Shown here one piece after another: positions 10,956 to 58,918 of a DNA stretch of 64,000 nt. Origin of the DNA: Granulosicoccus antarcticus IMCC3135 (GTDB lineage: Bacteria > Pseudomonadota > Gammaproteobacteria > Granulosicoccales > Granulosicoccaceae). The translations under genes and the position numbers were made by a program. Position 1 is the stretch's first letter; every line of letters begins with the position of its first letter. Under the pieces are notes generated by a model that saw only the letters and a list, made by a program, of their open reading frames with translations, ran no database searches and was not told where the DNA came from. The DNA lies in assembly GCF_002215215.1 (NCBI RefSeq), contig NZ_CP018632.1, positions 5,142,501-5,206,500 on the forward strand. The letters run 5' to 3'.

Positions 10956-11274
10956 TCGTTTAGCCTTTATTATTCCTAAATAATTTGATTTTGATAGCAG
11001 ATATTTTTGCCGAATACCAGAACCTTCTGAAAAATATTACCGCAAGCTTTTCAAACAGGCATTGTAGTAACTACATTTCCCTGTCCCAAATCTAAGCATT
11101 CAGAATACAACACTCTTCTGATTTCAACGTTTTACTACATCTCGAGATCGAGAGCCCCTTCTTTTGAGTCAAGATTGTTGATTTCCGCACTTAGGAATAT
11201 GAATTAAATTAAGACATTATAAGCCACACTCAAAATAGTTGAGAATCGATATAAATACTCTTCCATTTATTAGA
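10956..11274. other. Gene-free gap between neuA and epimerase
   Basis: 319 bp of AT-rich sequence with no supported gene. It could hold a promoter for the epimerase gene. I see no convincing hairpin or repeat. Confidence 0.5.
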
Positions 11275-12009
11275 TCAGCAAATCTTACTCAACAAATCCT
11301 CTGCGTGTTTGAAATCGTCAAAAGTATCAATATCAACCGAATCGGATTTCAGCATTGGATACGCGAGAGTATTAGGGCCAAAAAATGATTCACGCTCACG
11401 CAATACAGATATTTTAGAAACGTATATAGCGCCATTAAGACTATATTCATTGTTCCGACCATCCTGATCACAACCATAAGATACTATTTCTGAAAATCGA
11501 CCTGCATTCTTGAGCTCTACAAACCAGTGTGATCCAGGGTCACTCCTACATACAGAAACAATACTGTCTTTATTCGAATTTTTCAACATAGTGATAGCTT
11601 CATCAATATGCTCTGCACGCCTAAGTGGTGAGGTAGGCTGCAAAAGGCAACAATAGTCAAAATTGACACCAGATGAAGAAAGCTCGTCCAAGACACTCAG
11701 CACTACGCTCACACTAGAAGCACTATCTGTAGCTAAAGAAGTATCACGATTAATGAAAGGCATATTTCTATAATCGCAAATAGTTTTTACTTTTTCATCG
11801 TCAGATGAAATAATAGTCATACTCAAATATTTAGATTTCTGACTTTCATCAAAGGACCACTCAACCAGGGACTTTCCAAGTAGTTGCATCGTATTTTTCC
11901 CAGGCAGTCTTTTACTTCCTCCTCTAGCAGGAATGATTGCCAAAATTCTTATATTTCCAGAAAGTAACACATCAGACATTATATACAGAAGCCTTAATAT
12001 TTTTTTCAA
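11275..12009 (-). CDS. neuA: CMP-N-acetylneuraminate cytidylyltransferase
   Basis: Activates sialic acid: CTP + Neu5Ac gives CMP-Neu5Ac + PPi in the cytoplasm. Seen: the signature nucleotide-binding loop IIPARGGSKRLPGKN near residues 25-39, LLQPTSPLRRAEHIDEAI, and the late YSLNGAIYVSK and DSVDIDTFDDF motifs (metal-binding Asp pair). Length (244 aa; about 226 if the ATG of MSDVLLSG is used) is normal. It lies well downstream of neuC and neuB, separated from them by the flippase and dioxygenase genes. The enzyme could serve Neu5Ac, legionaminic or pseudaminic acid; the NeuC type in this cluster favours Neu5Ac or legionaminic acid. Confidence 0.92.
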   Translation of the reverse strand: MKKILRLLYIMSDVLLSGNIRILAIIPARGGSKRLPGKNTMQLLGKSLVEWSFDESQKSKYLSMTIISSDDEKVKTICDYRNMPFINRDTSLATDSASSVSVVLSVLDELSSSGVNFDYCCLLQPTSPLRRAEHIDEAITMLKNSNKDSIVSVCRSDPGSHWFVELKNAGRFSEIVSYGCDQDGRNNEYSLNGAIYVSKISVLRERESFFGPNTLAYPMLKSDSVDIDTFDDFKHAEDLLSKIC

Positions 12010-16448: not shown

Positions 16449-17552
16449 TTAATCACTTGGTAAAATCAAATCACCATCGGTGTATTCTTTATTCGAATTT
16501 TTACCTACAACATTCCAATATTCAAACGGACTTATACCATTCCCAGGACGCTTCAGCGCTATATTACCTCTAGAGTATTTTTCACCTAATTGTATTATTC
16601 CATTTGCAACAATACTTCTTCGAGCAGCCGTAATATTACCAATCTCGCTCTTGGTCGGACCTTTTATTGAATTCCCCAATGCTAATTCTATCATTCTTAA
16701 GGATTTTACAAATTGTTTCAGCTGTATCGCATCCAGCGATGCAGCATGATCTGGGCCTTCCATATTTCTATCTAAAGTAAAGTGTTTTTCTATTACTTTT
16801 GCCCCTCTTGCAATAGCGCCGATAGAAGCAATATCATCTTCAGTGTGATCTGAGAAACCGACCTGCAAATCAAATGCATCTTGCATGGTGTTCATAGCTC
16901 GCAAGTTCACTTCGTTAATCGGCGAAGGGTATTCTGTTGTGCAATGCAGCAAACAGACCTTATCTCTCAGATACGCCTGCCCTTCATCCGACCAATACGC
17001 CTCATAGAAGGCAGATTGCGAAGGCACCGTATTTTTGCCGGCAACAAACCCGAATGCTATAACACCCAAAGCTCTTTCGACATCAGCGAGAGTAGCCATA
17101 CCAGTTGAGACATACATTTTTTCAATGGAATATTCCTCACACAGCAAAGCATGCTGAAGTAAAAGAGGTGCATTCGTTAAGTCTCCCGATGGTATTTTAA
17201 GGAATCTAACACCCAACTCCTTTACTAAAAACATCAGGTTATCTTCATCAAAGGCCGTAGATAAATAATCTATCCCAACCTCATCACAATAAGTTCTTAG
17301 CCTGCTATGCGACGCGGACGATAATTCTAGCTTTTTAAGCATTTCATATTGGCTAGGTTCTTCCGACCCTAAAGAGTTCTGATAGCGTGCTTTTGGAGCG
17401 CTGTACGTTACCAATTTAGTGGAAGAGAACAGCTGAAATTTGATTACATCCACATCGCACTGTTTTGCTGTATCAATCAACTCCATGGCTACGGATTCAT
17501 CACCATTGTGATTAACACCAGCTTCACCAATAATTTTGACTTTATATTCCAA
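16449..17552 (-). CDS. neuB: N-acetylneuraminate synthase (sialic acid synthase)
   Basis: Condenses N-acetylmannosamine with phosphoenolpyruvate to give Neu5Ac. Seen: the opening IIGEAGVNHNGD at residues 7-18, DVIKFQLF, the TIM-barrel motifs FLKIPSGDL, VSTGMATLADV, LLHCTTEYPSP and FSDHT, and the lysine motif KVIEKHFTLDRN. A C-terminal SAF/antifreeze-like domain runs from about 300 (RRSIVANGIIQLGE, ALKRPGNGISP). Length 367 is normal (family about 345-350). It starts 118 bp after neuC on the same strand. A legionaminic acid synthase cannot be excluded. Confidence 0.95.
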   Translation of the reverse strand: MEYKVKIIGEAGVNHNGDESVAMELIDTAKQCDVDVIKFQLFSSTKLVTYSAPKARYQNSLGSEEPSQYEMLKKLELSSASHSRLRTYCDEVGIDYLSTAFDEDNLMFLVKELGVRFLKIPSGDLTNAPLLLQHALLCEEYSIEKMYVSTGMATLADVERALGVIAFGFVAGKNTVPSQSAFYEAYWSDEGQAYLRDKVCLLHCTTEYPSPINEVNLRAMNTMQDAFDLQVGFSDHTEDDIASIGAIARGAKVIEKHFTLDRNMEGPDHAASLDAIQLKQFVKSLRMIELALGNSIKGPTKSEIGNITAARRSIVANGIIQLGEKYSRGNIALKRPGNGISPFEYWNVVGKNSNKEYTDGDLILPSD

Positions 17553-17669: not shown

Positions 17670-18833
17670 TTAATATGTCAAGCTTTTATTTAACATCCAA
17701 CTCGGCAAATCATGATTCATCAATATTTCACAAATTCGCTCATCTGCAAAACCATCCCCATATACATTAACGAAAGGTGGTTTTAAACACAATGCCTGAT
17801 CGATAACAACAGAGAGCGTCTCGATATCGCACCCTTCATATGAAATAGTATTCTCACTGATATCGCGCAATTTTTGCCTTATACCTATATTTACAACGGG
17901 TGTACCCAAGGTCGCTGCTTCGATTATGCCTGAGGATGAATTGCCAATCAATAAATCACTATTGTAAAGAACTTCAAGATACTGCTCACGCTCTAAATGT
18001 CGAATAATGTATAGATTTTCTATATCAGAAACACTATTCAAGTATTCATCCATTAAGGCACCACCAGAATCTGAATTGGGCCTCAGTATTATTACATTAA
18101 TATTTTTACTCGACAATGTAGTTAAAGTGACCTGCAACTCTAAAAGACTTTTTTCTGGAACCTGAAGAACAGGATGAAATACAAGAAGGGCGACGAGTCC
18201 AGTTTTACCTTCAAAGTATTGATCAGACAATATCGATCTACATTTAATATTATTTTTCACCAAATTAACCAAACCCGGCGCTCCTGCTACGAACACAGCT
18301 TCTTCCAACTCCCCCATTTTAATCAACCTCAATCGTGCCGCATCGTTTGAAGCTAAATGAATGTGACTCAGTTTCGATATTGCATGTCTTACACTTTCGT
18401 CAACAGTTCCAGAGCGCTCCCCTCCGTGAATATGACAAACGTGCAAATTCAAATGAACCGCAGCTATAGCTGCAGCAAGCATTTCACCTCGGTCCCCTAG
18501 CAAAACTACTACTTCAGGTCGATTTTTCTGCCAATACTCTGTCAAGCCCCTTATTTCAGTACCAATTGCTGAGGCCATCTCGGCTCCGCCGGATGAACCC
18601 GATAACCCGACATCAATAATGCACCCTACCTCAAGACCACTATCATATACTTCACTTAAAGTATTTCCGTATTCTGCACTAGTATGCTGACCCGTAACCA
18701 GCACACTTATCGATACACCAGATTTACTGTTTAGCAAAAGGAGAGTGCTTCTCATTAAACCAAAATCTGCCCGGCTCCCAGTTACGTAGTGTATTTTCCT
18801 ATTCTTGACATTTGTCACGCCCTCTCCAATCAA
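17670..18833 (-). CDS. neuC: UDP-N-acetylglucosamine 2-epimerase (hydrolysing)
   Basis: Converts UDP-GlcNAc to ManNAc + UDP, the first step of sialic acid synthesis. Seen: YVTGSRADFGLMRS near residue 16, VVLLGDRGEMLAAA, CHIHGGERSGTVDESVRHAISKLS, and the C-terminal UDP-binding GNSSSGIIEAATLGTPVVNIG. Length 387 fits the NeuC/NeuC-like group rather than the non-hydrolysing WecB group. Its start overlaps the stop of the upstream sugar transferase (ATGA at 18830-18833), so the two are translationally coupled. The GRM-type close relative acting on 6-deoxy sugars (legionaminic acid path) is the main alternative. Confidence 0.95.
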   Translation of the reverse strand: MIGEGVTNVKNRKIHYVTGSRADFGLMRSTLLLLNSKSGVSISVLVTGQHTSAEYGNTLSEVYDSGLEVGCIIDVGLSGSSGGAEMASAIGTEIRGLTEYWQKNRPEVVVLLGDRGEMLAAAIAAVHLNLHVCHIHGGERSGTVDESVRHAISKLSHIHLASNDAARLRLIKMGELEEAVFVAGAPGLVNLVKNNIKCRSILSDQYFEGKTGLVALLVFHPVLQVPEKSLLELQVTLTTLSSKNINVIILRPNSDSGGALMDEYLNSVSDIENLYIIRHLEREQYLEVLYNSDLLIGNSSSGIIEAATLGTPVVNIGIRQKLRDISENTISYEGCDIETLSVVIDQALCLKPPFVNVYGDGFADERICEILMNHDLPSWMLNKSLTY

Positions 18834-41622: not shown

Positions 41623-44600
41623 TCAGTTTCCAAGGGGAAGCAACAAGTCCATGTTGCCGGCATTAGCGGCAGGCAATGTGTTGAACCATACCCCCTGCCA
41701 TGGCGACACTGAATCAGTTGGTGCCAAATCGGTATAGTCTGCGTTTTCAGAGACGTACGCCCATACAAACCCCGTGGTCAACTGATCGTTGACAGCATCA
41801 GCCACGGTGCAACCATCTATACAAACACTGCCATCGATATCTGACACGATGCGAAAGTCGGAAAACGGTACGTTGTAACGAGAAGGCGACCCTACCATTG
41901 CCCAGGTAACTATCTGATCGCTGGTTGGCAGACGCTTGTCTATGCACCCCACGCTACTGGCACACGCTACATTTCCATCCGGGAGAGCTGCAGGCACAAA
42001 CGAGGGTAATTCAATCTCTACCGTATCAGCCACTATCTGAATAATCCACATACCCTCCCCTGTCGAAGGTATGTAGTCCAGATCAGGCGTTCGGTAGTCT
42101 TGCACATCGTTGTCAAAGGTATAAACGGTCCATGTGCTGTCGAACGTATCCATCGGTAGGGCATCTTCAAAAAGGTCTTGGATGCTGTAAGCGCCGGTTT
42201 CTCCAGGTACCACGATGAGTTCCCACACGTTATCTCTAAGCGTGAGCGGAATAATCGGATCACAAATAACAGCGGCATCGCCAACATCACGCCCATTGCC
42301 ATAGGCCCCAATCTCTCCACCCTTGCTACCAGCGGTTTTCGACGGTGATCCACAGGCTATACGTCGATTACCTGTTGATAGATCCACATATACCGGATCG
42401 CTTGACAGATGGCTTTCGGGGATCGTGCCTGGACTTTGATAGTCCTCTGCGTTTCTCCACACGTTGTTATAACCGCTCGACACTTTGGCTCCGAAGTACC
42501 AACCTGTCAGTGCATTTCGGCTGATGATATTGTTCTCAACAATCGTTGAATCACTCAAACCTCCGTTAAAACGCAAACCATAGCCACCGTTGGCATCGAT
42601 GGTATTGTAGGTGATAGAGGCGCCTGTCGCATCCAGTTGGATACCGGTACCCGGGTTATCCACGATACGATTGTTGGCTATCTCCGGCGCCCCGCCACCA
42701 ATATAGACCCCGTAGTCAATACAGCCATTGAGCAGACTATCCTGGATTACCTGCTTGCCGCCACTAATGGCTATGCACGTATTCGCACCACTAAAGACGG
42801 CGTGACTGATGAAACTACCACCGCTTGAGCTGCCAAATTGCAAGCCGCTCCAGAGAGCTCCGCCCGCACCTTCGAAAACAATCGGTGAGTCTGCACTGCC
42901 TACGCTGCTCAAGCGACTATTGACAAGCAACGATTCATTGGCTGGCACCTGCACCACGGTACCGGGCGCTATCTCCAGCTGCCAGGGCCAGTCCACGCTG
43001 ACACTTCCCGTCAACGTCACCGTACCGGACCAATGCTCATTTCTCGTCAACGCACCCGAAGTGGTGGCCTCGTTTGTAAACTCTGGCCTGTAATCTGACG
43101 ATGTGCCACCGTCACCGTAAGCGCCAATCTCGCCACCTTCACTGCTGGCTGTTTTAGATGCAGAATCAGCTTGCAGACGTCGATTACCTGTTGATAAATC
43201 CAGATACAGCGGATCGCTGGACAGATGGCTTTCGGGGATCGTGCCTGGACTTTGATAGTCCTCTGTGTTTCCCCACACGTTGTTATAACCGCTCGACACT
43301 TTGGCTCCGAAGTACCAACCTGTCAGTGCATTTCGGCTGATGATATTGTTCTCAACAATCGTTGAATCACTCAAACCTCCGTTAAAACGCAAACCATAGC
43401 CACCGTTGGTATCGATGGTATTGTAGGTGATAGAGGCGCCTGTCGCATCCAGTTGGATACCGGTACCCGGGTTATCCACGATGCGATTGTTGGCTATCTC
43501 CGGCGCCCCGCCACCAATATTGATCCCGTAGTCAATACAGCCATTGAGCAGACTATCCTGGATTACCTGCACACCGCCACTAATGGCTATGCAAGTGCTC
43601 GCACCACTAAAGACGGCGTGACTGATGAAACTACTACCGCTCGAGCTGCCAAATTGCAAGCCGCTCCAGAGACCACCACCCGCGCCTTCGAAAACAATCG
43701 GTGAATCTGCACTGCCTATACTGTTCAAGCGGGCATTGATAAGCAACGATTCACTGGCTGGCACTTGTACCACCGTGCCGGGCGCGATCTCCAGCTGCCA
43801 GGGCCAGTCCACGCTGACACTTCCCGTCAACGTCACCGTACCGGACCAATGCTCATTTCTCGTCAACGCACCCGAAGTGGTGGCCTCGTTTGTAAACTCT
43901 GGCCTGTAATCTGGCGATGTGCCACCGTCACCGTAAGCGCCAATCTCGCCACCTTCACTGCTGGCTGTTTTAGATGCAGAATCAGCTTGCAGACGTCGAT
44001 TACCTGTTGACAAATCCAGATACAGCGGATCGCTGGACAGATGGCTTTCGGGGATCGTGCCTGGACTTTGATAGTCCTCTGTGTTTCCCCACACGTTGTT
44101 ATAACCGCTCGACACTTTGGCTCCGAAGTACCAACCTGTCAGTGCATTTCGGCTGATGATATTGTTCTCAACAATCGTTGAATCACTCAAACCTCCGTTA
44201 AAACGCAAACCATAGCCACCGTTGGCATCGATGGTATTGTAGGTGATAGAGGCGCCTGTCGCATCCAGTTGGATACCGGTACCCGGGTTATCCACGATGC
44301 GATTGTTGGCTATCTCCGGCGCCCCGCCACCAATATAGATCCCGTAGTCAATACAGCCATTGAGCAGACTATCCTGGATTACCTGCACACCGCCACTAAT
44401 GGCTATGCAAGTGCTCGCACCACTAAAGACGGCGTGACTGATGAAACTACTACTGCTAGAGCTGCCAAATTGCAAGCCGCTCCAGAGACCACCACCCGCG
44501 CCTTCGAAAACAATCGGTGAATCTGCACTGCCTATACTGTTCAAGCGGGCATTGATAAGCAACGATTCACTGGCTGGCACTTGTACCACCGTGCCGGGCG

Positions 44601-45615
44601 CGATCTCCAGCTGCCAGGGCCAGTCCACGCTGACACTTCCCGTCAACGTCACCGTACCGGACCAACGCTCATTTCTCGTCAACGCACCCGAAGTGGTGGC
44701 CTCGTTTGTAAACTCTGGCCTGTAATCTGGCGATGTGCCACCGTCACCGTAAGCGCCAATCTCGCCACCTTCACTGCTGGCTGTTTTAGATGCAGAATCA
44801 GCTTGCAGACGTCGATTACCTGTTGATAAATCCAGATACAGCGGATCGCTTGACAGATGGCTTTCGGGGATCGTGCCTGGACTTTGATAGTCCTCTGTGT
44901 TTCCCCACACGTTGTTATAACCGCTCGACACTTTGGCTCCGAAGTACCAACCTGTCAGTGCATTTCGGCTGATGATATTGTTCTCAATAATCGTTGAATC
45001 ACTCAAACCTCCGTTAAAACGCAAACCATAGCCACCGTTGGCATCGATGGTATTGTAGGTGATAGAGGCGCCTGTCGCATCCAGTTGGATACCGGTACCC
45101 GGGTTATCCACGATGCGATTGTTGGCTATCTCCGGCGCCCCGCCACCAATATAGATCCCGTAGTCAATACAGCCATTGAGCAGACTATCCTGGATTACCT
45201 GCACACCGCCACTAATGGCTATGCAAGTGCTCGCACCACTAAAGACGGCGTGACTGATGAAACTACTACTGCTAGAGCTGCCAAATTGCAAGCCGCTCCA
45301 TGGGGCATTTCCTGAACCTTCAAATACAATCGGCAAATCTTCACTACCGATGATATTTGCCTGACTGTTGATGCTTAACGATTCATTTGGTGGCACTTGC
45401 ACAATCGTGCCAGGGGCGATATCCAGCTGCCACGGCGGATCCACGGAAACGCTTCCTGTCAACACCACCGTGCCGGACCATTGTTCATCACTGGTAAGTG
45501 CCCCTGAAGTGGTGATCGTATTTTCGCTTTGGGCCACTGCAGTGTTTAGGGTCAGCAAGACACTAGCTACCACGAGTAATTTCAAAAAGATCGACACTGC
45601 GCGAATAATCAGCAT
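41623..45615 (-). CDS. Secreted right-handed beta-helix protein with four 272-aa repeats
   Basis: About 1330 residues. Seen: a signal peptide (LLVVASVLLTLNTAVAQ) then four repeats. Each has an N-terminal part TTSGALTRNEHWSGTVTLTG and LEIAPGTVVQVPASESL, then a parallel beta-helix run (GGAPEIANNRIVDNPGTGIQL, the NosD/PbH1 pattern), ending LSSDPLYLDLSTGNRRLQ. Repeats 2 and 3 are nearly identical in DNA. A C-terminal region of about 210 residues follows (WELIVVPGETGAYS… WQGVWFNTLPA), resembling that of the metalloprotease at 51658-54834. Probable role: a cell-surface or released carbohydrate-binding or polysaccharide-active protein; no catalytic motif can be named. I chose the ATG at 45615 with AGGTG 7 bp upstream over a GTG at 45624. 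Confidence 0.88.
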   Translation of the reverse strand: MLIIRAVSIFLKLLVVASVLLTLNTAVAQSENTITTSGALTSDEQWSGTVVLTGSVSVDPPWQLDIAPGTIVQVPPNESLSINSQANIIGSEDLPIVFEGSGNAPWSGLQFGSSSSSSFISHAVFSGASTCIAISGGVQVIQDSLLNGCIDYGIYIGGGAPEIANNRIVDNPGTGIQLDATGASITYNTIDANGGYGLRFNGGLSDSTIIENNIISRNALTGWYFGAKVSSGYNNVWGNTEDYQSPGTIPESHLSSDPLYLDLSTGNRRLQADSASKTASSEGGEIGAYGDGGTSPDYRPEFTNEATTSGALTRNERWSGTVTLTGSVSVDWPWQLEIAPGTVVQVPASESLLINARLNSIGSADSPIVFEGAGGGLWSGLQFGSSSSSSFISHAVFSGASTCIAISGGVQVIQDSLLNGCIDYGIYIGGGAPEIANNRIVDNPGTGIQLDATGASITYNTIDANGGYGLRFNGGLSDSTIVENNIISRNALTGWYFGAKVSSGYNNVWGNTEDYQSPGTIPESHLSSDPLYLDLSTGNRRLQADSASKTASSEGGEIGAYGDGGTSPDYRPEFTNEATTSGALTRNEHWSGTVTLTGSVSVDWPWQLEIAPGTVVQVPASESLLINARLNSIGSADSPIVFEGAGGGLWSGLQFGSSSGSSFISHAVFSGASTCIAISGGVQVIQDSLLNGCIDYGINIGGGAPEIANNRIVDNPGTGIQLDATGASITYNTIDTNGGYGLRFNGGLSDSTIVENNIISRNALTGWYFGAKVSSGYNNVWGNTEDYQSPGTIPESHLSSDPLYLDLSTGNRRLQADSASKTASSEGGEIGAYGDGGTSSDYRPEFTNEATTSGALTRNEHWSGTVTLTGSVSVDWPWQLEIAPGTVVQVPANESLLVNSRLSSVGSADSPIVFEGAGGALWSGLQFGSSSGGSFISHAVFSGANTCIAISGGKQVIQDSLLNGCIDYGVYIGGGAPEIANNRIVDNPGTGIQLDATGASITYNTIDANGGYGLRFNGGLSDSTIVENNIISRNALTGWYFGAKVSSGYNNVWRNAEDYQSPGTIPESHLSSDPVYVDLSTGNRRIACGSPSKTAGSKGGEIGAYGNGRDVGDAAVICDPIIPLTLRDNVWELIVVPGETGAYSIQDLFEDALPMDTFDSTWTVYTFDNDVQDYRTPDLDYIPSTGEGMWIIQIVADTVEIELPSFVPAALPDGNVACASSVGCIDKRLPTSDQIVTWAMVGSPSRYNVPFSDFRIVSDIDGSVCIDGCTVADAVNDQLTTGFVWAYVSENADYTDLAPTDSVSPWQGVWFNTLPAANAGNMDLLLPLGN
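42278..45530. repeat. 816-bp tandem repeats inside the beta-helix gene
   Basis: Four units in register at 816 bp: about 44726-45530, 43910-44725, 43094-43909 and 42278-43093. Units 2 and 3 differ by only a handful of bases over most of their length. Units 1 and 4 carry more changes at their outer edges. The exact multiple of 3 keeps the reading frame, so unit number can change without breaking the protein. Confidence 0.95.
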
Positions 45616-45845
45616 AGCAATCACCTGTTTTCTCTGAATATAATTTTGGCAAGTACAGTCACAGCCCGATTATCAATGCCACAGGCTACAGAATGTTCTT
45701 TGAATGAATACCGATATTATTATCACTTATATTATTGTTAGGCAACTTAACAATTTCAATTAGCACCTATTCAAAAGTCTAGCATTTGAATATTCAGGCG
45801 ATACTTCATCGAATCAGCAGTGAACGTATATGGACTCCTCCTCTT

Positions 45846-46107
45846 TTGCAAGCATCTCGCTTTTCGGCGTCAAAGTACGACTGCCTACGTATATCCGGTC
45901 TCATTGTTGATGCCGTTCTCGTAGGCATCGGACCCTGATGGGCTATTCGCGCGTCGGCTTCCAAACGCTTACACGAGCTTTTAAGCTCTTCGTTCACGAG
46001 GATTTCACCAACACCGGTTCGACCTGTACGCCATCAAGCGCTTTGCTTTGCAATCGTTGTGATAGGGTTTTCTTCTTTATATGCTTTGAACTACTAGTGT
46101 GGCTTTT
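45846..46107 (-). ncRNA. Candidate bridge-RNA region of the IS1111-like element
   Basis: In IS110-family elements the gene-free end of the element encodes a structured guide ('bridge') RNA that pairs with donor and target DNA; in the IS1111 group it lies downstream of the recombinase. This 262-bp stretch is in that place, has no gene, and contains hairpin-forming sequences (for example GAGCTTTTAAGCTC near 45974). The loops and guides cannot be assigned by eye. Confidence 0.4.
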
Positions 46108-47148
46108 TTAGCCTGCTGCCAGTGCAGGGTCATACTCAGTACCACCGTGGACGATAGCCCAGGCCATGCGTGCCGTCTTGTTTGCAAGCGCAACCGTTGC
46201 AACGTTTACGTGTTTACGCGCTGTCAAGTCATTGACCCAGCGACTCAAGCTATCGTCACGATTCTTAGCAAATCTAATCACTGCGCGTGCGCCGTGCACA
46301 AGTAGCTTCCTCAGGTACGAATCACCTCGTTTACTGATTCCCAGTAGTCGATCCTTGCCTCCCGTACTGTGTTGGCGCGGTGTTAATCCCAACGATGCTG
46401 CAAAATCGCGCCCCTTGCTGAACGCGCCCCCATCGCCAAGCGCACCAGCCAAGGCTGTGGCGGTCAGTGGCCCAACACCTCGAAGCTTGAGTAATCGTTT
46501 GGCAACAGGATTTTCTTTTGCCTGCTGCGCAATGCGTTTATCCAAGACGTCGACACGCTCGTCCTCGTCCAGTCGAACAAGATCCTCATGAAGCTCAGCA
46601 AGTTCAATTCGGAACTGGAAACTCAGTGCGTTCTCTGCGTCTTCGAGCCAACACGGTAGCGCTCGACGAAGCTGGGCAATTCCTACAGGTGCAATCACGC
46701 CATATTCGCCGACCAGACCACGAATCTGGTTTGCTAACGCAGTTCGTTGTTTGACCAATTCGGAGCGGATACGGTGGGTCGCCTGAGCATCTTGTTGTTT
46801 GATTGATTTTACGGCGACAAATCGCATGGAGGGTCGAACGGCCGCCTCGCAAATAGCTTCCGCGTCCACCCGGTCATTTTTATTACTCTTCACATAAGGT
46901 TTGACGAACTGAGCCGCGATGAGCTGAACATGATAGCCACGTCGTTGTAATTCACGCCCCCAATGGTGAGCCGATGCTGCGCAAGCTTCCATCACCACGG
47001 TTGTGCCCTCTGGCACCTGCTCACACAACTCATCCACCCATTCACGGCGTTTAAGTTTCTTCTGCCACTGGCACTGACCATGCCGGTCAACCGCATGGAG
47101 GTGAAAAACGGATTTAGCAATATCAACGCCGGTCAGAGTAATCTTCAT
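46108..47148 (-). CDS. IS110-family transposase (DEDD recombinase)
   Basis: 346 residues. Seen: N-terminal RuvC-like DEDD domain with TGVDIAKSVFHLHAVD (Asp9), VVMEACAASAHHWGREL (Glu), KNDRVDAEAIC (Asp), then a coiled-coil middle; the C-terminal Tnp_20 domain with LLKLRGVGPLTATALAGAL, ASLGLTPRQHSTGGKDRLLGIS and KRGDSYLRKLLVHGARA, which carries the catalytic Ser. Full length and uninterrupted, probably functional. The enzyme works as a guide-RNA-directed recombinase in characterised members. Confidence 0.95.
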   Translation of the reverse strand: MKITLTGVDIAKSVFHLHAVDRHGQCQWQKKLKRREWVDELCEQVPEGTTVVMEACAASAHHWGRELQRRGYHVQLIAAQFVKPYVKSNKNDRVDAEAICEAAVRPSMRFVAVKSIKQQDAQATHRIRSELVKQRTALANQIRGLVGEYGVIAPVGIAQLRRALPCWLEDAENALSFQFRIELAELHEDLVRLDEDERVDVLDKRIAQQAKENPVAKRLLKLRGVGPLTATALAGALGDGGAFSKGRDFAASLGLTPRQHSTGGKDRLLGISKRGDSYLRKLLVHGARAVIRFAKNRDDSLSRWVNDLTARKHVNVATVALANKTARMAWAIVHGGTEYDPALAAG

Positions 47149-47347
47149 AGGGATCTCCTCGTGTAGTTAACGAATAGCGGACCTGAGCTTGCTATTCTGC
47201 CGCCTCAGCGCCGAAATGTTAAGGCGAGGAGGAGTCCATCCCATTGGTTACCAGCAATGCAGAATTTTTCAGGTTGCTAAACTACCTGAGGACCCTGGAA
47301 GCAGGCGTTCTTGCCATATCGCCGACGGGATGCTTATGCGAAAACCT

Positions 47348-47369
47348 CAGCACTTCCCGGCCAGTACAA
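47348..47369 (+). repeat. Orphan end of IS4-like element
   Basis: CAGCACTTCCCGGCCAGTACAA differs by a single base from the left end of the IS4-like element at 49944. Nothing else of the element follows; an IS66 remnant begins about 35 bp later. It is a solo end left by deletion or by one-ended rearrangement. Confidence 0.75.
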
Positions 47370-47526
47370 CAATGCTAAATATATCAAGAGGTTGAAATAG
47401 TCTGACAACAGTGAGTGACCTGGTCGTTGACTTGCCCGATGGGACACGCCTTGTTGCCAGAGGTCGTGCTTGCGCCGAACAGCTCCTGACACACTTGTCG
47501 CTTGGTGCTGTGCCAGGAGCCGTCCG

Positions 47527-47856
47527 ATGATTCGCCTGACTCACGAGTCCCGTATCCTTCTGGCTATTGCTCCTGCCGATTTTCGCTCTGGCATCGATGG
47601 CCTGAGCGCCCGTTGCCGGCAGGTGCTGGAGCACGATCCGAGTAGTGGAGCGATTGTCGTATTCATCAACCGGGCACACACCATGATTCGTGCTTTGAGC
47701 TATGACGGTAACGGATATTGGTTAATGACGAAGCGGTTGAGCCGCGGCACTTTTCAACATTGGCCACGTAGCGCTGGGGCATTGTCATGCGTCAGTGCAC
47801 GCCAGTTGACTCAACATTATCCAATGTGGAGCTTCGCAACACGACAACAAGGCTGA
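47527..47856 (+). CDS. tnpB: IS66 TnpB (decayed element)
   Basis: 109 residues from the ATG at 47527, which overlaps the tnpA stop (ATGA). Seen: RILLAIAPADFRSGIDGLSARC, SGAIVVFINRAHTMIRALSYDGNGYW and TKRLSRGTFQHWP, the Orf2 signature with a gap-free frame. It is intact as a gene, but its partners are not. Confidence 0.85.
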   Translation: MIRLTHESRILLAIAPADFRSGIDGLSARCRQVLEHDPSSGAIVVFINRAHTMIRALSYDGNGYWLMTKRLSRGTFQHWPRSAGALSCVSARQLTQHYPMWSFATRQQG

Positions 47857-47964
47857 CGAGGTGGCGCAGACCATGCACATGACGCCCGCGACGAGCTCGT
47901 TCAAGGCGCAGCCGGTATCCGTTCAAAAACCGCTTGCATCGGCTCAGCGGGAAACATACGATTA

Positions 47965-49772
47965 ATGCACACCTCAGCCAGTATTCCAGCCTCCTTTGAT
48001 AATCATGACTGCCCAGTGAGTAGGACCCGCGCCAAAGCCTGTGATGGACGTCGATTCATCGATATTAGCGAGGCTGAACTGGGCGCACTGATCCAGCGCA
48101 TCGAGGATGCCATCACGTTCAATCTGGCGCTCAATCCGGATGACTACCGCTTGCTGATCAGCGCCTTGGGGACACTGGCCACGATGCAAGATCAGCTTAG
48201 CCGTGATGATCTGACACTGCGCAAGCTGCGAAAGCTTCTGGGCCTGATCAATGCCTCTGAGAAGCTGAAGAACTTGAAAGGTGGCAATGCCAAGGACAAG
48301 GACAAGCCAGGCGCCGATGACAAGGGTGCAGCCGAAGAGGACAACGGTACTCCAAGTCCGCCCCGGCCCGGCCCAAGCCAAAACGCCCTCCTAAACCCCC
48401 ACCAGCCCCACCGGTGGAACCAGAAAATGTACGTCACTCATTCGACTCGATGAGCAAGGGCGATCAATGCCCGGACTGCCCACGAGGCAAGGTCTATAAG
48501 TATGAGCCAGCGGTGATGGTACGTGTCACCGGCCAGGCCCCCTACAGCGCCAAACGTCACATCCGTGACAGGTTGAGATGTAGTGCCTGTGGAGCGGTAT
48601 TCAGCGCCGATCTGCCTGCTGAGGTGTTGGCTGATGGAGAGCCGGGGCAGCTCTACGGCAACTCGGCCCGCTCGGTCATGGCCATTAGCAAGTGCCTGGC
48701 TGGAGAGCCCTACTATCGTCAACAAAGCGTGCAGAGTCTCTATGGCATCAAGCTCAGCGCCTCCACCATCTTTGATCAATGTGAATATGCGGCCAACGAT
48801 CTACAGCCGGTATGGCGCGAGGTGTTGAAACTGGCTGCCAACGCGCAAGTGTTCTACATCGACGACACCACCAACCGCATCAGCGATCAGAATGGAATGT
48901 ACAAGCCCAAGCGTGGCACAGACAAACTACAGTGGCGTACCGGGGTATATAGCTCGGCGATGCTGGCCGTGTATGATGATGTTGATGAGACAGGGATGGG
49001 CTGTAAACGACGCTTGGTGTTGTATCAAACCAGTATCGGTCATGCCGGCGAATGGGCCGATGAGGTGCTTGGCCCACGCGATAGCTCATTGCCGCCACCG
49101 ACCGTTATTAGCGATGCACTGAGCAGCAACCGGGTCAGCGTTGTGGAGGTGCTGGACGCCAAATGCAATGTTCACTCAAGAAGGAATTTTGTAGAGGTCC
49201 GCTCGCACTTCCCCAGTGGCATGGACGCCATACTGGAGCTGTATCGCCAGATATGGGTCAATGACGCGCATTGTCGCAACGAACAGCACAGTGACGAGCA
49301 GCGTCAGCAATACCATCACACCCATTCTCTGCCGGTGATGCAAACACTGCAGGGCTGGTTTGAGTATGCCTTGAGTGAAAAGACCCAAGACGCCGTCTTG
49401 CCACCACTGGATAGCACCGTGCCTGAGAGTCTGCACCATATAGAACCCAACAGCAGTCTGGGAGCGGCAATGAGCTACTTGCTCAATCACTACGATAAAT
49501 TGACCCAGTACTGCCATTATCCTGGAATTCCGATCGACAATAATGAGATCGAGCGCCTGATCAAATTGGTGGTGCGTAACCGGAAGAATGCCGGGTACTT
49601 CAGAACACAGGCCGGTGCCTGGGTGGGCGACATGCTGACGTCGATGATCGCCATCTGCCAGGAAAATGGAGTCAATGCCTTCGAATACCTCACCGCTATT
49701 CAATGCAACCGAGTAGCGGTAAGAGCGAATCCGGGGGCCTGGTTGCCGTGGAACTACACCCAAAGCGTTTGA
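47965..49772 (+). pseudogene. tnpC: IS66 TnpC, frameshifted
   Basis: N-terminal frame 47965-48345 (about) has a long helix region ending KDKDKPGADDKGAAEEDNG. The rest is in another frame: KPKRPPKPPPAPPVEPENVRHSF leads into the frame used by 48414-49772. That frame holds the zinc finger CPDCPRGKVYKYEP, the DDE motifs FYIDDTTNRI, ISDALSSN and the C-terminal DNNEIERLIKLVVRNRKN. A single frameshift in 48345-48360 separates them. Either decay or a frameshifting site; the Pro-rich stretch reads naturally in the second frame. Confidence 0.82.
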
Positions 49773-49943
49773 GTCACGTCTCAGGAAAATAGTCACCAGT
49801 GTGGCTGAAGCTGCCTGCCTGATGACTTCCCACTATCGCTGATTGTCAGTGAAGCATCTTTGCACCGTCCTGTCACGCAGGCTGGCCGTAAACTCACTTT
49901 AGATCAGAGTCTTGGATCTAACCGAGTGCCATTGGCGTATGGG

Positions 49944-51592
49944 CAGCAGTTCCCGGCCAGTACAAGAAGTCGCCTAGAATCAGTAAGTTGATGTTGTGCA
50001 GCAAAGTAGCTCTTCGTACGCTACCTTTAACAGGCAAGCCCACCGACTTTTGTACCTGTTACTCATGGCTGCTCCCGCCGCACGATTTCGACAGACGCTC
50101 TCCGCTCCGGGTTTGATCCAGAAGCTGCGCGACACCTTCTCGCAGGTACAGGACAAACGCCGCGCAAAGAGTGTGCGTCATTCAATGCCTGACGCTCTGA
50201 TGGCAGCTTTCGCCATGTTCAATCTGAAGTATCCTTCGATGCTGCGTTTTGATACCGAAGCCCATGCTGATCCGCGGCTGATACATAATCTGAAGAGCCT
50301 GTTCGGACTCGACGAGGTACCCGGCGATACACAGATGCGCGAAATTCTCGACCGGGTGAAACCCGAGGCTCTGCGTCCGTGTTTCGAAGCCCTACATCAC
50401 GAGCTTCAGCGTGGCAAGGTGCTTGAGGATTTCATTGTGTTGGGTAAATATTATTTACTGGCTATTGACGGTACCGGACAATTTGCCTCTAACAAGGTCT
50501 CCTGCCCACACTGTTGCGTGAAGAACCGCTCGAACGGCACCAAGGAGTTCTACCATCAGGTTCTGGCTGCGGTGATGGTGCATCCCGAACTGAAGACAGT
50601 GCTGCCACTGGCAGTCGAGCCAATCACCAAACGCGACGGAGATAACAAGAACGACTGTGAGCGTAATGCTTCGAAAAGACTGTTGGCGTACCTGGACAGC
50701 GCATTCCCACACAGAAAGTTTCTCGTCGTCGAGGATGCTCTGGCATCAAACGGGCCACATGTCGAGCTGTTAGGAAAGCTCGGAATGGACTTCATACTCG
50801 GTGTAAAACCAGATGGCAACCAGAAACTGTTTGAGCAAGTGCTACGACGACAGTGCGATAAGACACTGGGGGAGTGGAACAGCGAAGTTGCTGCTAACGG
50901 CAGCTGTCACGGTTATCGATTTACTAACCGGCTGTCTTTAAATGACTCTCACCCCGATCTGATGGTCAATTACGTCGAGTATTGGGAGGTGGACAAGAGG
51001 GATAAGGAGGGCAACGATGGCAAGTAGCATATATTCTCATGGGCAACCAGCCTTGAGGTGAGCATCGAGAATGTTCAGGCTATCGGACGAGCGGGCCGGA
51101 CTCGATGGCGTGTGGAGAATGAGACTTTTAATGTGCTCAAGAATCAGGGCTACGAGTTCGAACACAATTACGGACACGGCAAACAGAATCTATCCAGCAC
51201 ACTGGCTGTATTGATGATGCTAGCGTTCCTAGTTGATCAGATTCAGGAACACTCGTGTCGTGTATTCCAGCAAGCAAGAAAGAGTCGCGGAACCAAGAAG
51301 ACACTATGGATGCAAATGCGGGTCATGATGACCACATTCCGAATACCGGACTGGCAAACCTATATGGCGCTGCTGATTGATCCGGATTCTGTGTCAATGC
51401 AGACCGGACAGGTTGATAGCGGATAATCAGCAAACGATGACGACGCAACCCTCGGCCCACTCTGCAGGAAACCCTTGAGCACTATTAAAAACCGAATTGG
51501 CTAAAGCGCACTAAACTGGCGAGGCTGTGCCATGGCCGCAGAATTTGTGAGAACTGCGGCGGTCAGATTGCCCAACTCAGCGGGAATTGCTG
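49944..51592 (+). mobile_element. IS4-like element, copy D (1649 bp)
   Basis: Ends CAGCAGTTCCCGGC and the inverted GCGGGAATTGCTG pattern match the other copies. The perfect 9-bp duplication GCGTATGGG flanks it at 49935-49943 and 51593-51601. It carries a transposase frame with one in-frame TAG. The intact duplication indicates that this copy arrived by transposition and has not rearranged since. Confidence 0.95.
50065..51426 (+). pseudogene. DDE transposase of copy D, interrupted by in-frame TAG
   Basis: Reads from MAAPAARFRQTLSA to a TAG at 51025-51027, then on in the same frame through HIFSWATSLEV and RTRWRVENETFN to the stop at 51424. Catalytic motifs LAIDGTGQF, VVEDALASNGPH and WRVENETFN are all kept. 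The stop is at the codon aligned with the TAA of copy A (both follow GGC AAG). There is also a six-residue insertion just before it (KRDKEGND). The frame appears to start at 49996, but the MAAP start matches copies A and B. Confidence 0.85.
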
Positions 51593-51657
51593 GCGTATGG
51601 GAGACTTTCACCCCACTGAAAAGAGGCGCCTATGCACGGCGCACTGATTCATTCAGG

Positions 51658-54600
51658 TTAGAACCTTGCACCAACATTTGTAACAGATGGATTAACTGTT
51701 GGCTTAAATCCCACCCAACCACCGACCCAAGGTGGCAAAGACTCGCCCGTACCATACTGACGATAATCACTAATTGATTCATCATAAGAAAAAACGACCT
51801 CTGACGTTAGTCCGTCTGTGCCACCATCCACCAACGATCGCTCTTGCCACTGCCCTTCCAATTCATACACGAAATCGATGTTATCCACTTTGATAAAATC
51901 AATGAAAGGATTTCCGATCATGGCCCACTGTGTTCCACTTGTTGGTTTGGAAGTGAACAAATTGTCTGTTAAAACACAATCATTCTGGTCGCCGCAAGCT
52001 GCACTTTCAATGACTTCTGGAACGCTCAAGGAAGGTGGCAGTTGCAGCTCGACATCTGAGCCTGTCAATTGAGTAAACCAGTAGCCCTTACCTTCAGAAA
52101 GAACACTACCGAGAGGTACAATAGTATATTTTTCAGCTTCAGTAAGGTAATCGAACAATACCCATGTGTTGTTGTATGTTGAGGTATCCAAAACAGAGCC
52201 AAATACTTCAGCAACTGTCGAGCCATACACATCAGCTGGCAGCGAAATCTGAACCCAACTATTAGATGGAACAATTAGGGAGGGTGCCAACGGTGCCGGA
52301 TCGCAAACATCATTCAAACCATCCAGATCTAGATCAGCTTGTGCAGAGTCAGAAAAAGCTGCACAACTGTCGCAAGCGTCACCGAATCCATCACCATCAC
52401 TATCCAGCTGCTCAGGGTTTGAATCAATGGCACAATTGTCCAGCTCGTATATGACACCATCGCCATCAACATCAGAACCCGCTATGGTCGAAAGTAACTC
52501 GTTGTGCTCTAACCCTCTTTCGAGAACATATTTGTTGCTGCTGTCGACATCTTGTGCCAATCTGTTTTTTATGAAACTCCAATCGTCATGATCCTTAAGA
52601 GTATCTTTACGCAAAATGTTTGATGGAGCGCATAAAGCACCTATCCAATAATTGTAATCCATTGGATACCCATCACGTGAAATTCCGTCACCATCCCAAT
52701 CAACACCAAAATCTGGAGAATAATTTCTTTCTCCCATGAGGAAAGTACCCGCAATTTCAGAATATTTCAAGGGAATCACAGGAAAGCCACCGAAGCTAAA
52801 ACCCATTGACTCAATAACATTTGATTCATCGAATACAGGGGCTAAACCGTTAGAATATCGAAGCGGTCGATCACCTGATAAGTAGGCTGTTTGGTACAGG
52901 TAGTTCATCACACTCGGGTAATTCGGCTTGCAATGAATACTATTGCTGCCTCCGTGCAGCAAACCTAATGTATGTCCTAACTCATGCATCAACGTACCTG
53001 CATCTGACGATACCAGTTGCCGTGCACTTAGCTGCGATCGTCGCAGTCTACTTATCGACCGTGGTCCTGTTATCAGGTTGAAAGCGAGGAAGGGCCCTCC
53101 AATTAAAGCTGCTCCAGTACGCCCGTTATCATCTATATTCTCGGCAAATAGTGCCAGTTTGTATACTTCGCCCTTGGCTCCCAGAAAAGCTTCGCAGTCA
53201 GCTCTAGCACGTTCAACAGCAGAACCGAAAGTACCTAAACAGTTGCCATTACCGTTATCTATATCCGAGTTATTCGCGAAACCAAAGAAAAGATTTGCAA
53301 ATACCTGGCCAGCATCGGTGTCTACCGCGGCGTCATAACCGGACATACCTGATTCGATGATCTCCGCTGGAATCTCATCTGCTGCATCCCAATCTACAAT
53401 AAGTTGTATGCCATTCTTTAAATATGCCAGTTTGACTGCCAGCAACATATCCCTTGGAAAATCCCGTGGAAAAACAACTGTGTTATCCCTAAGGCCTCTT
53501 TCCTCAAGAGCGCTCAGGCGATCTTCTAACTCGAGAAGTTTGATATCTTGCTGGAAATTATACTCAAGGAATACGGTTGGTATCGTAAGGCTGGCGCCTT
53601 CTGCTGCGGGCTCAAAGTCGTAAATACCGTCACTATTCCCATCTACACCTCGACCCGGCGACTCCATTTCATTAGTTAGCCCATCTAAATCACAATCGTC
53701 ATTAGTTGCTTGTGAGTTCGAGCCCGTTGGACAGGTTGCACTGAAGTGCCCTCGGTGAAGCCAAAATTCATTACCGATTTCAATTCCCACCGTGAATATC
53801 CCTCCTGCAATTGGGTAGTTAGCCTGAACAACAGAGAGCTCCTGAGGCCCGACCCCTGAAATCGCGTAGTCGCTCGCCACATTTGTATTAAGAAATCGCA
53901 AAGTCCAAGGTTCTCCCGAGGGAATCTGCGGCTCAGTTCTAAAATCTATATCTTCTCCAACATCTAGTCTGTATACAGCCAATGTAGGGGCGGCGTCCGA
54001 AAACCGAGACAGAAGATCATATTGTGGAGTCTCGTTAGTAATTCGCATCCTCACATTGTCCAACGCGACTGGACCACCAGCTTCGCCGCCTCCTAAACTA
54101 AAGCTTGGTTGATGATAGTAAGTACCAGATGTTGGCAGAGATGCATTTACGTATTCATGAACCAGTACCCCCCCAACTTCCAGTGAGGTTCTACCGGTAT
54201 TTAGATCAATACTAAATTTATAGTGAACAAATCCACTGGCTTTCACTCTCACAGGCTCCCTTGTTTCATATGTGCGACCCTCCATTCGTGAGTCAACCTC
54301 GATAAATGAACCAATTTTACTAACACTTACTAAGAGATCTAAGTCGCTGGTCTGTGCCTCTTCTCCTTCCAGAAAGTATCGGTCACTAAAAGTTATAACA
54401 TAGCCCATAAAATCATAGAAGGGCGGCAGTAATTCCATGTCAAATGACAACTCAATCTTCGATATTTTTGCAAGATCAAAGGCCACTAGCCTGTCGCGCT
54501 TGAAATAAACATTCGCTCCCAAACCACTTTTAACGAGCGCTTTACCACCAGTTTTCTGATCGAGCACTAGAGTCTCCATGGCAAATGAATCCTTACTCCA

Positions 54601-54834
54601 GTCAGCACTGCTAGTAGTTACATCAGTTCCATTGTCGTAGCCTTCAAAATCATCACAAAAACTCGCGCCAAGACAAGGGTCCTGTTCTTGGGCATGTAAA
54701 ACCGGAACGCAAATACAACTGACAAGAACAACCAGTAGCATACTTCGGAGATAGACAACTTTTACTAGAAATATTCGCACCACATGAGCTTTTGCAAAAC
54801 TAGCGTGTGTAGGATCTCCAAACATATCAATCAT
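51658..54834 (-). CDS. Secreted zinc metalloprotease with thrombospondin-type-3 repeats
   Basis: 1058 residues. Seen: a long signal region (MLLVVLVSCICVPVLHAQ); a beta-rich N-terminal part, perhaps a lectin or CBM-like fold; the metzincin motif HELGHTLGLLHGG (zinc His617, His621, His627, catalytic Glu618) with a following Met-turn PSVMNY; Asp-rich calcium repeats DVDGDGVIYELDNC, DSDGDGFGDACDSC and DLDLDGLNDVCDP at about 790-855; and a C-terminal part that resembles the beta-helix protein's. It would act outside the cell, cleaving proteins. Expression is by its own transcript; no neighbour is in operon. The true start may be the ATG nine bases in (MFGDPTH). Confidence 0.88.
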   Translation of the reverse strand: MIDMFGDPTHASFAKAHVVRIFLVKVVYLRSMLLVVLVSCICVPVLHAQEQDPCLGASFCDDFEGYDNGTDVTTSSADWSKDSFAMETLVLDQKTGGKALVKSGLGANVYFKRDRLVAFDLAKISKIELSFDMELLPPFYDFMGYVITFSDRYFLEGEEAQTSDLDLLVSVSKIGSFIEVDSRMEGRTYETREPVRVKASGFVHYKFSIDLNTGRTSLEVGGVLVHEYVNASLPTSGTYYHQPSFSLGGGEAGGPVALDNVRMRITNETPQYDLLSRFSDAAPTLAVYRLDVGEDIDFRTEPQIPSGEPWTLRFLNTNVASDYAISGVGPQELSVVQANYPIAGGIFTVGIEIGNEFWLHRGHFSATCPTGSNSQATNDDCDLDGLTNEMESPGRGVDGNSDGIYDFEPAAEGASLTIPTVFLEYNFQQDIKLLELEDRLSALEERGLRDNTVVFPRDFPRDMLLAVKLAYLKNGIQLIVDWDAADEIPAEIIESGMSGYDAAVDTDAGQVFANLFFGFANNSDIDNGNGNCLGTFGSAVERARADCEAFLGAKGEVYKLALFAENIDDNGRTGAALIGGPFLAFNLITGPRSISRLRRSQLSARQLVSSDAGTLMHELGHTLGLLHGGSNSIHCKPNYPSVMNYLYQTAYLSGDRPLRYSNGLAPVFDESNVIESMGFSFGGFPVIPLKYSEIAGTFLMGERNYSPDFGVDWDGDGISRDGYPMDYNYWIGALCAPSNILRKDTLKDHDDWSFIKNRLAQDVDSSNKYVLERGLEHNELLSTIAGSDVDGDGVIYELDNCAIDSNPEQLDSDGDGFGDACDSCAAFSDSAQADLDLDGLNDVCDPAPLAPSLIVPSNSWVQISLPADVYGSTVAEVFGSVLDTSTYNNTWVLFDYLTEAEKYTIVPLGSVLSEGKGYWFTQLTGSDVELQLPPSLSVPEVIESAACGDQNDCVLTDNLFTSKPTSGTQWAMIGNPFIDFIKVDNIDFVYELEGQWQERSLVDGGTDGLTSEVVFSYDESISDYRQYGTGESLPPWVGGWVGFKPTVNPSVTNVGARF

Positions 54835-55720: not shown

Positions 55721-55800
55721 ACCCCAAGGCTGCACTAACCCGCTAACCTGATGATCCGTCGCCTAAAGGCGAGGGGTTTACGGATCCCCTACCGGGAACT
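55212..55800 (-). mobile_element. IS200/IS605-type element inside group II RT
   Basis: Inserted in the RT frame between SSRCF and RYIKDW. Ends carry imperfect hairpins: GGCTAAAGCC on the left (55223 region) and CGCCTAAAGGCG on the right (55759 region), the kind of subterminal structures TnpA binds. No inverted terminal repeats or target duplication, as expected for single-strand transposition. Confidence 0.82.
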
Positions 55801-57200
55801 CCAAAACACCGGCTCGACATACCCACACGAAAATAGTTGACCCAGCCACGCAGTATCGGGTTGATGATACCGATAATCCGACTGATTGGCTGAGGCTGGA
55901 AACGCCTGAAAATTCCTTTCAGCTTCTGTGTCAGCGACTTCCTAGACTTCATTGTTGGCATGAACTGCACACCAACCTTGCCATTGCGCGTCATAGCGCG
56001 ACGGAAGTGAAAACCAAGAAAGCTGAACACACCGCCAGCAGACAAATCCACCACTTTCGTTTTTTCAGTATTGAGTTCAACACCCACTTTCTGAAATTCC
56101 TGACCTGACCGGAATGAGTGATGAATTTCGCCAAGGCATGCCTTTCACCACTGCCCAGCAGAAATTCAGGCAGCGCACATCGCAGCGCCATACCAACCAC
56201 ACGTTCGGAAGGTGCGACGTGTGTTCGTACTGTGCGCAGCCAAGAGCCAGAGCCTCGCCACACCCGCTGCTCCTCGGTGACTGACAGATACTGCATCAGG
56301 CCTTGAGCAATGAGACCGGCCTGCACTTGTACGTGATAAGCCTTGACTTTGCGATGCACATGATCTCGATAAACCTTCGGTTTTTTGTGTAAATACTGAT
56401 CACCCTGGCGACGACGTAGGGGTTGCATGTCCTGCATCCAGAGGTGATAGCTGTAAGTGCCAACCACGCCTTTGGCTTGCTTGAAGCCATGCTCGATTTT
56501 GAAGCGCAGTCCATAGAGCTCAATAATCTCCAGTGCGTTCAAGCTCAGATCCGTGGACATCAGCAGGCAATGACCGCGCTTGGGATATTCCACAATGACG
56601 AAGCGGACTAATCGCCCCGCAGGCTTCCAGAGCAAATCGCGCGTACGGTACTTGATCATGACTTCATGGTCGCCATAAACGGGACTGGGTGCCCTTGTGG
56701 AATGGACCCGGTTTGTGACGTATCGAGGCCAATGGCATCCGCTCGCCGTACTTGGCTGGACGGCCACGTTTTCGACGCTGGCAGGGTTTGGGTATTTTGT
56801 AACCGACCGCGTTGTTCTTGATCCGAGTCACCAGATGATTGCCCTCGTTAACCAGACCTTTGATGATCTTCTGGTTGGCGTAAAAGGCATCGGCGACAAA
56901 GTAGAACGATGAGGCCATGTCGATGCTCTGCAGCAGGCTGATCATCTTGTCATGCTGGGTTCGGGTGTCTCGGTTGGAGGTCACGATACCTTCATGAATG
57001 CGACTGACCAAAGGGTAAGCGTCCTTAAATCAGCGTTATTGACTAGCGGTCTCGCGCGCGCGACCCTGTGCGCACTATCAGAAAGAGCCAGAACCCGATG
57101 CTCACTATCGATTTCATTGCCCTCCAGCGCCAACCAGGTAAAAGGGATTCATAGCGTGTGACGGCAGCAGACTCAACAAGCCTTGCTGACTACCTGCTGG

Positions 57201-58667: not shown

Positions 58668-58918
58668 CTGCTGGTGCTTGTTGATCAGATCCTGTTGTTC
58701 AACAAGCGAGTCACTTTGCTGTGTCAGTTGGTTTTGCAGGGCAATGAAGCGCTCGACACGCAGCTCGCCGACGGGTAAAACCTCGTCACCGTGCTGTGCA
58801 TTCTGCGCTGATTAAAAGCCCCATATCATGGCTTGTATTTTACCATAAGGAGTTATTAAAACGCTGTAAATACAGTATAAAACGGGAGTTCATCCGCCTA
58901 TTTTTTCATTCGAAAGAC

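Follow-up and report, generated by a model that had tools for sequence, protein, structure and literature searches.

Carbohydrate-binding modules (CBMs) are usually discrete, aromatic-rich domains placed N- or C-terminally on hydrolases, lyases and esterases, and the Pfam database holds many families of them. The type IX C-terminal domains (Por_Secre_tail, CHU_C) are beta-rich and are likewise carried by many unrelated secreted proteins. CBM92 (PMC11039641) is one example of the carbohydrate-binding class, and the PEP-CTERM/exosortase system (PMC1569441) joins unrelated secreted proteins through one common end, composed of a short PEP motif, a transmembrane helix and a basic tail, in association with exopolysaccharide genes. 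The element considered here invites comparison with all three. It was recognized in a stretch of 64,000 nucleotides from Granulosicoccus antarcticus IMCC3135 (positions 5,142,501 to 5,206,500 of contig NZ_CP018632.1, hereafter C1), referred to below as the window, in which two large secreted proteins, designated A and B, end in the same module of about 195 residues.

By sequence comparison, the ends of A and B are one homologous module. Their last 214 residues align by BLASTP with 27% identity over 209 residues (77.4 bits, E 3e-22), and the Smith-Waterman score of 219 compares with a mean of 36 (standard deviation 6.2, maximum 73) for 2000 shuffles. The initial annotation had described the same layout over approximately the last 210 residues of both proteins and unrelated N-terminal parts; both statements proved correct, since the motifs that it named (W, W(T/V), Y, G-x-G-x-W, C-x5-C, WAM(V/I)G and PW-x-G-x-W) fall at aligned positions of the two ends, with their residues belonging to the invariant columns, and the parts N-terminal to the module gave a best E of 3.9 in a single comparison. 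Module A has a further Cys pair (CxxxC), which module B lacks. Protein A is built from a signal peptide, four right-handed beta-helix repeats of 272 residues each and the C-terminal module, and protein B from a signal peptide, a metzincin-type metalloprotease, a TSP3-like linker and the C-terminal module, the signal peptides of both being assigned by eye. We favour, with moderate confidence, the reading that this is a mobile extracellular module, most likely carbohydrate-binding, which would hold secreted enzymes on polysaccharide of the cell's own matrix, of algae, or of both.

The module consists of two diverged half-repeats, related in hhalign with a probability of 95% and a P value of 2.3e-8 over 34 columns (85% over 77 columns in a global run), and each half follows roughly the pattern W..(I/L)..P ... 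W.(V/I)(F/Y).YD....Y....L..G.GYW. In the family alignment of 24 members (A2, with columns numbered as in module L009), W11, W42, Y54, W70, P84, C98, C104 and W188 are invariant and P17, G66, G122, Y172 and W184 nearly so, W or Y thus occupying 7 of these 13 positions. Trp contributes 3.6% of module residues as against 1.4% of the residues elsewhere in these proteins. Cys is frequent as well, many members having a second pair besides the invariant C98 and C104. A condensed variant occurs in genome G410 on a DUF4838 protein (L060:7887-9080, the same record as L083:522-1715), in which profile columns 3-81 are joined directly to columns 139-193 and the middle is absent; this is perhaps a minimal form of the module.

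Pfam and NCBIfam scans of the two ends returned nothing beyond chance, a search of PDB chain sequences with the module profile gave no hit at E<=10, and no description of the module was found in the literature searched. The module would appear, from these searches, to represent a domain family without a match in the copies of Pfam, NCBIfam and PDB sequences consulted, and in kind a putative mobile accessory binding module. Structure prediction and fold comparison had been suggested by the initial annotation. AlphaFold2 returned beta-rich models with one short helix per half, both for the window module (predicted local distance difference test, pLDDT, 85.3; predicted template modelling score, pTM, 0.81) and for a consensus-like relative (85.2 and 0.80). 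Within each set of five models the confidence varied widely, the lowest mean pLDDT being 53 and 67, and no convincing PDB match was obtained. The best VIA-align matches in PDB (Z 3.3, root-mean-square deviation 3.2, 92 residues aligned for the window module; Z 2.9, 3.3 and 83 for the relative) lie at background, and a fold comparison with predicted viral proteins gave no match. The highest VIA row for the window module was the sialic-acid-binding HA70, whose Z of 3.3 is no better than common beta arrangements give and was not used as evidence. The fold may be new, although these comparisons exclude no fold family.

The genome-wide profile search proposed in the initial annotation revealed that A and B are part of a larger set. 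A profile of the two ends, run against the 7.78-Mb genome, identified six strong copies, one weak copy (E 2.3e-4) and one further place at E 0.71; a profile of the 24 members recovered the same seven copies and nothing else at E<=10, leaving the eighth place unconfirmed. The five additional carriers all lie outside the window (Table), others are found in relatives, and the surmise of one module on otherwise unrelated secreted proteins is thereby borne out. A Pfam scan of 36 module proteins (7 from this genome, one of them scanned without its last 21 residues, and 29 from others; 4 of the 36, L060, L068:4819, L069 and L082, carry a partial or condensed module) found a partner domain over the curated cut-off in 23. 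Plainly carbohydrate-directed partners account for four of the 36, one each of GH16, alginate lyase, apiosidase and sialic-acid-specific acetylesterase. The others are beta-helix/DUF1565 (3), Laminin-G-like (2), GDSL (2, one of them with a ricin lectin), DUF1800 (2) and fn3/Big_9 (3), together with single cases of reprolysin, DUF4838, DUF7948/SBBP, FG-GAP, GSDH/PKD with cytochrome matches, CCP_MauG and EGF/TSP3.

The module occurs at either end of its carriers. Among 32 full modules from 12 sources, with at least 150 residues aligned, 10 are N-terminal (starting before residue 115), 20 are C-terminal (fewer than 40 residues after the module) and 2 are internal; partial or condensed modules (L060/L083, L068:4819, L069, L077, L082, L084) and rows known from searches only (G030:C221, G034:C538) were kept apart from this count. 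The N-terminal modules follow a signal peptide, as judged by eye, and include two of the seven in this genome, those of the GH16 protein (from residue 31) and of the 903-residue protein (from residue 45). On the tree, the label N-terminal or other requires 6 changes, at least 4 of which are forced by the starred branches alone. Module A groups with an N-terminal module of another genome (support 96/82), and in one genome L062 (C-terminal) and L063 (N-terminal) are 69% identical at opposite ends of their proteins.

All seven copies lie within 94 kb (C1:5,100,036-5,194,781), a span that opens 42 kb ahead of the window and closes at its position 52,281; the chance of seven copies falling in such a span is about 2e-11 if they were placed independently at random. 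Five of the seven genes stand inside a stretch of polysaccharide synthesis genes at 5,086-5,171 kb, the upper limit being taken from a gene (5169359-5171350) whose likeness to the epimerase was judged by eye only. This stretch holds an EpsE-like export gene, GMP_PMI, a heparinase II/III-like gene, an HprK-related kinase A-like gene, WecB, an FnlA-like gene, a Polysacc_synt_2 epimerase, NeuB, NeuC and a PseF/NeuA-like gene; NeuB, NeuC, WecB and GMP_PMI score over their NCBIfam cut-offs, and FnlA, PseF, EpsE and HprK_rel_A below. There are four Poly_export matches in the genome, and only the one at 5,086,832, 13 kb from the first module copy, is near module genes.

What suggests carbohydrate binding is that the module is discrete and aromatic-rich and can stand N- or C-terminally on hydrolases, lyases and esterases; in these respects, as well as in its presence on carbohydrate-active enzymes, it resembles the CBM class. 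It differs in having, in the searches made, neither an above-chance Pfam match nor a matching solved fold, in being carried also by many other proteins, proteases and DUF1800 proteins among them, and in that its binding is inferred only. Carriers, whether enzymes or repeat proteins, would be exported by the Sec pathway and most likely released through a type II secretion system. The genome encodes a type II secretin, GspD (606.7 bits against a cut-off of 351), by way of which Sec cargo that is folded and carries disulphides would probably cross the outer membrane. The module, presumably non-catalytic, would then bind a glycan, either the cell's own exopolysaccharide or capsule, presumably the product of the neighbouring genes, or an algal polysaccharide or both, and so might concentrate the attached hydrolase or lyase, esterase, metalloprotease or beta-helix protein on the matrix. 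A signal-peptide heuristic carries little force here: it accepted 26 of the 35 complete carriers, among which L060 and L083 are the same record, but also 105 of 222 other open reading frames (ORFs). Of the two roles offered by the initial annotation, cell-surface anchor and secretion signal, the former survives in a loose sense, that of enzymes held on the surface or matrix by binding, and in that sense is the best reading; a position-bound tail or covalent anchor is not supported.

A number of findings weigh against carbohydrate binding. The main reason for caution is that some carriers, those with DUF1800, cytochrome peroxidase, FG-GAP and Ig/fn3 partners, have no evident tie to sugars, and 13 of the 36 have no partner over the Pfam cut-off. 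When the 24 members were compared with Pfam, four families were touched by one member each at E 0.12-0.24, none of them a CBM, and Foldseek found no PDB match for either model at E<=0.001. The modules are acidic (677 D+E against 243 K+R; the rest of the carriers is acidic too, though less so), which disfavours a polyanionic ligand unless it is metal-bridged. The genes for A and B themselves stand outside the polysaccharide stretch, approximately 13 and 23 kb past its last gene of that type, with transposases and genes resembling rimO and metF, all recognized by eye, in between, and in 15 loci of other genomes, read by eye from ORF beginnings, the module genes are mostly found among transporters and housekeeping genes. 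If the module does bind polysaccharide, it would provide a handle on matrix-directed enzymes whose catalytic parts often go unrecognized, as in the 13 carriers just mentioned. It is tempting to go further and to picture a double-repeat module of unrecorded fold that addresses secreted proteases, the GH16 hydrolase and beta-helix proteins to the cell's own exopolysaccharide, with carriers recruited singly into and around the polysaccharide locus and matrix and remodelling enzymes co-inherited, but this more specific picture is speculative and rather unlikely.

Among the alternatives, the one that holds up best, although we consider it unlikely, is that the module docks on a protein partner at the cell surface, an outer-membrane or matrix scaffold, with one receptor serving all carriers in the manner of dockerins or S-layer-homology domains. 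A common module at either end of diverse, unrelated carriers would suit such docking, a partner gene in the vicinity would be in keeping with the grouping of all seven genes, and small, apparently membrane-anchored or lipoprotein-like neighbours with a recurring C-terminal tail of PPA(A/P)PG type stand beside module genes in two genomes. However, no receptor was noted in 15 neighbourhoods read by eye, no systematic receptor search having been made, the genes are scattered in relatives, and the modules have diverged a great deal (median end branch 0.94 changes per column) for proteins that would all have to fit a single receptor. Improbable in our estimate is a unit of folding or stability, a disulphide-stapled cap or chaperone-like element that has no ligand and spread by domain shuffling. 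The invariant Cys pair, the second pair in many members, the location at the ends of long proteins and the lack of a common substrate among carriers all accord with such a unit, whereas the enrichment in Trp does not, and on general grounds neither the many invariant aromatics nor service at both ends of folds as different as GH16, beta-helix and metzincin would be expected of it.

The secretion signal of the initial annotation, extended to any C-terminal sorting signal or covalent anchor of the type IX or PEP-CTERM kind, is very improbable: the C-terminal majority of full modules, both window proteins included, and the presence of several copies per genome speak for it, but nearly a third of the modules stand N-terminal behind an apparent signal peptide and two are internal, the changes of position forced on the tree strongly disfavour a position-dependent tag, inspection of the ends of A and B by eye reveals neither a transmembrane helix nor a basic tail, exosortase (PF09721) had no match at E<=0.001 in this genome in a search where the control matched in 1 of 14, and CHU_C was touched by a single one of the 24 members (E 0.17). 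The likeness to PEP-CTERM proteins extends to a common end on unrelated secreted proteins near exopolysaccharide genes, the HprK-related kinase A-like and EpsE/PEP-CTERM-export-like genes of the region (both below cut-off) included, and stops at a module that is far longer, is predicted to be folded, occurs at either end and has no shared upstream element that could be found. With the type IX domains it has in common a beta-rich end domain on many unrelated secreted proteins, while differing in not being confined to the C-terminus; SprA of the type IX machinery had no match in the genome, in a search that matched no control genome either. A shared promoter, as described for PEP-CTERM genes, was considered and rejected. 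No exact 10-mer is common to three or more of the 300-bp stretches upstream of the seven module genes, and their best sigma-54 matches have 2, 3, 3, 3, 2, 3 and 4 mismatches, against two or fewer in 46 of 500 random stretches; for the broken gene (gene 28) an approximate start was used, and its upstream stretch falls in the neighbouring gene.

The seven modules of this genome do not form one clade. Seven changes are needed on the tree for the seven rows, and a one-clade constraint gives a P value of 0.006 in the approximately unbiased test, a result that rejects an origin of the cluster by local tandem duplication; the places of two rows, 14752 and 109159 (joined region), are unsure because of their long branches. 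Since the modules are not of one clade, the cluster most likely reflects separate carriers brought together rather than duplication in place, and would exemplify how unrelated carriers can come to share a single chromosomal region.

Beyond this genome the family is found on secreted enzymes in part of the Granulosicoccaceae and in a small number of further Gammaproteobacteria; the counts that follow include the genome of G. antarcticus wherever it belongs to the set. A two-row profile detected the module in 7 of 95 relatives (G069 only at E 0.005). Within Granulosicoccaceae, 7 of 48 genomes carry it, in 1 to 12 copies, G034 with a partial one. In the class and phylum samples the best 8 candidates per genome were scored, such that weak copies may escape, and at least 7 of 369 and at least 1 of 398 genomes, the latter being G. 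antarcticus itself, were positive; in the class sample G128, G252 and G355 form one divergent group and G069 is doubtful. Relatives of G410 yielded 3 of 144, among them G069 and G128. G069, in spite of E 1.1e-8 in the class sample, did not appear in an hmmsearch of its ORFs at E<=0.01 and is not counted as a carrier. The named records, nine loci, come from Granulosicoccaceae, Thiotrichaceae, Methylococcales and an unclassified gammaproteobacterium. One query module had no match at E<=1 in 72,556 plasmid records, and eight stretches of viral contigs that fitted the single pattern used were not confirmed. According to PMC9238374, members of Granulosicoccus abound on kelp and genomes of Granulosicoccaceae contain alginate lyase genes. 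The exception among the 15 loci read by eye is L079 (G001:C452), where an N-terminal carrier lies within a run of GH5, GDSL and beta-helix proteins. Adjoining this carrier, five proteins (3-1496, 2029-3594, 3661-5106, 5662-7737 and 10982-12700; GH5, beta-helix, GDSL, DUF11 and one of no assigned type) share another C-terminal tail, resembling YLVRSGSTIVDSGxVTVDCD.

Table. Module proteins, their parts and sugar genes near them. Positions are those of the window or of contig C1, as marked.
Feature	Positions	Strand	Basis
Carrier: M10-like metzincin	C1 5099751-5101469	-	profile match
Carrier: reprolysin-type metzincin	C1 5102438-5105065	+	profile match and Pfam
Carrier: 903-residue protein, no Pfam match	C1 5105273-5107984	+	profile match; module N-terminal
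Carrier: double GH16 protein	C1 5111153-5113576	-	profile match and Pfam; module N-terminal
Carrier: propeller-like protein (fold guessed by eye)	C1 5125806-5126897	-	profile match
CMP-sugar (PseF/NeuA-like) cytidylyltransferase	window 11275..12009	-	TIGR03584 119.5 bits, below cut-off 205.7
NeuB (N-acetylneuraminate synthase)	window 16449..17552	-	TIGR03569 419 bits, over cut-off
NeuC (UDP-GlcNAc 2-epimerase)	window 17670..18833	-	TIGR03568 336 bits, over cut-off
Secreted protein A, 1333 residues, GTG start	window 41623..45624	-	intact ORF; PF13229 E 3e-40 in 4 stretches
Module A (last 214 residues and stop)	window 41623..42267	-	BLASTP and profile; profile-matched core 41668-42246
Module A, second half-repeat (WAMVGSP...PWQGVWF)	window 41674..41904	-	hhalign; limits approximate, by eye
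Module A, first half-repeat (LTLRDNVW...)	window 42013..42246	-	hhalign; limits approximate, by eye
Four tandem 272-residue beta-helix repeats of A	window 42274..45513	-	81-98% amino acid identity; lower end approximate
Secreted protein B, 1058 residues	window 51658..54834	-	intact ORF; HExxHxxGxxH visible
Module B (last 214 residues and stop)	window 51658..52302	-	BLASTP and profile; profile-matched core 51700-52281
Module B, second half-repeat	window 51700..51927	-	alignment and hhalign; limits approximate, by eye
Module B, first half-repeat	window 52045..52281	-	alignment and hhalign; limits approximate, by eye
TSP3-like Asp-rich linker before module B, residues 787-825	window 52360..52476	-	partial matches below cut-offs
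Metzincin zinc motif HELGHTLGLLH of B, residues 617-627	window 52954..52986	-	sequence; M10/M12 stretches at residues 604-645

Outside the module, the catalytic part of protein B carries the HExxHxxGxxH zinc motif of metzincin metallopeptidases, with M10/M12 profile matches below the curated cut-offs, and its linker matches NF047638 and NF045500 partially, below cut-offs, and TSP_3 with 21.1 bits against a cut-off of 25. In protein A the four repeats correspond to 816-bp units that are 82-99% alike in DNA, repeats 2 and 3 being 99.1% identical, and because of this close similarity the number of repeats could change by recombination. Many transposase-like genes of several types, recognized by eye, occupy window positions 46108-51426, between A and B, and 55743-59287, on the other flank of B. 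Of the carriers outside the window, the 903-residue protein contains HG and SC motifs (THGAVDKDG, YNGSCSS) that we take to resemble those of clan CD cysteine peptidases, and the propeller-like carrier (C1:5125806-5127400) appears broken upstream, its signal peptide and first part lying in other frames with stops between.

Finally, small, apparently secreted or membrane-anchored neighbours of module genes display a recurrent C-terminal proline motif (TPPAPPGG, SPPAAPGN, TPPPAPG, APAAPGQ). Such proteins are encoded in this genome (G000) at C1:5098815-5099747 (+) and C1:5110495-5111142 (-) and elsewhere at L073:11012-12247 and L073:14156-14731, and another neighbour, at C1:5108599-5110299, has PFAPPPAPGG near its N-terminus. 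The recurrent motif is possibly that of a partner or of a sorting process.

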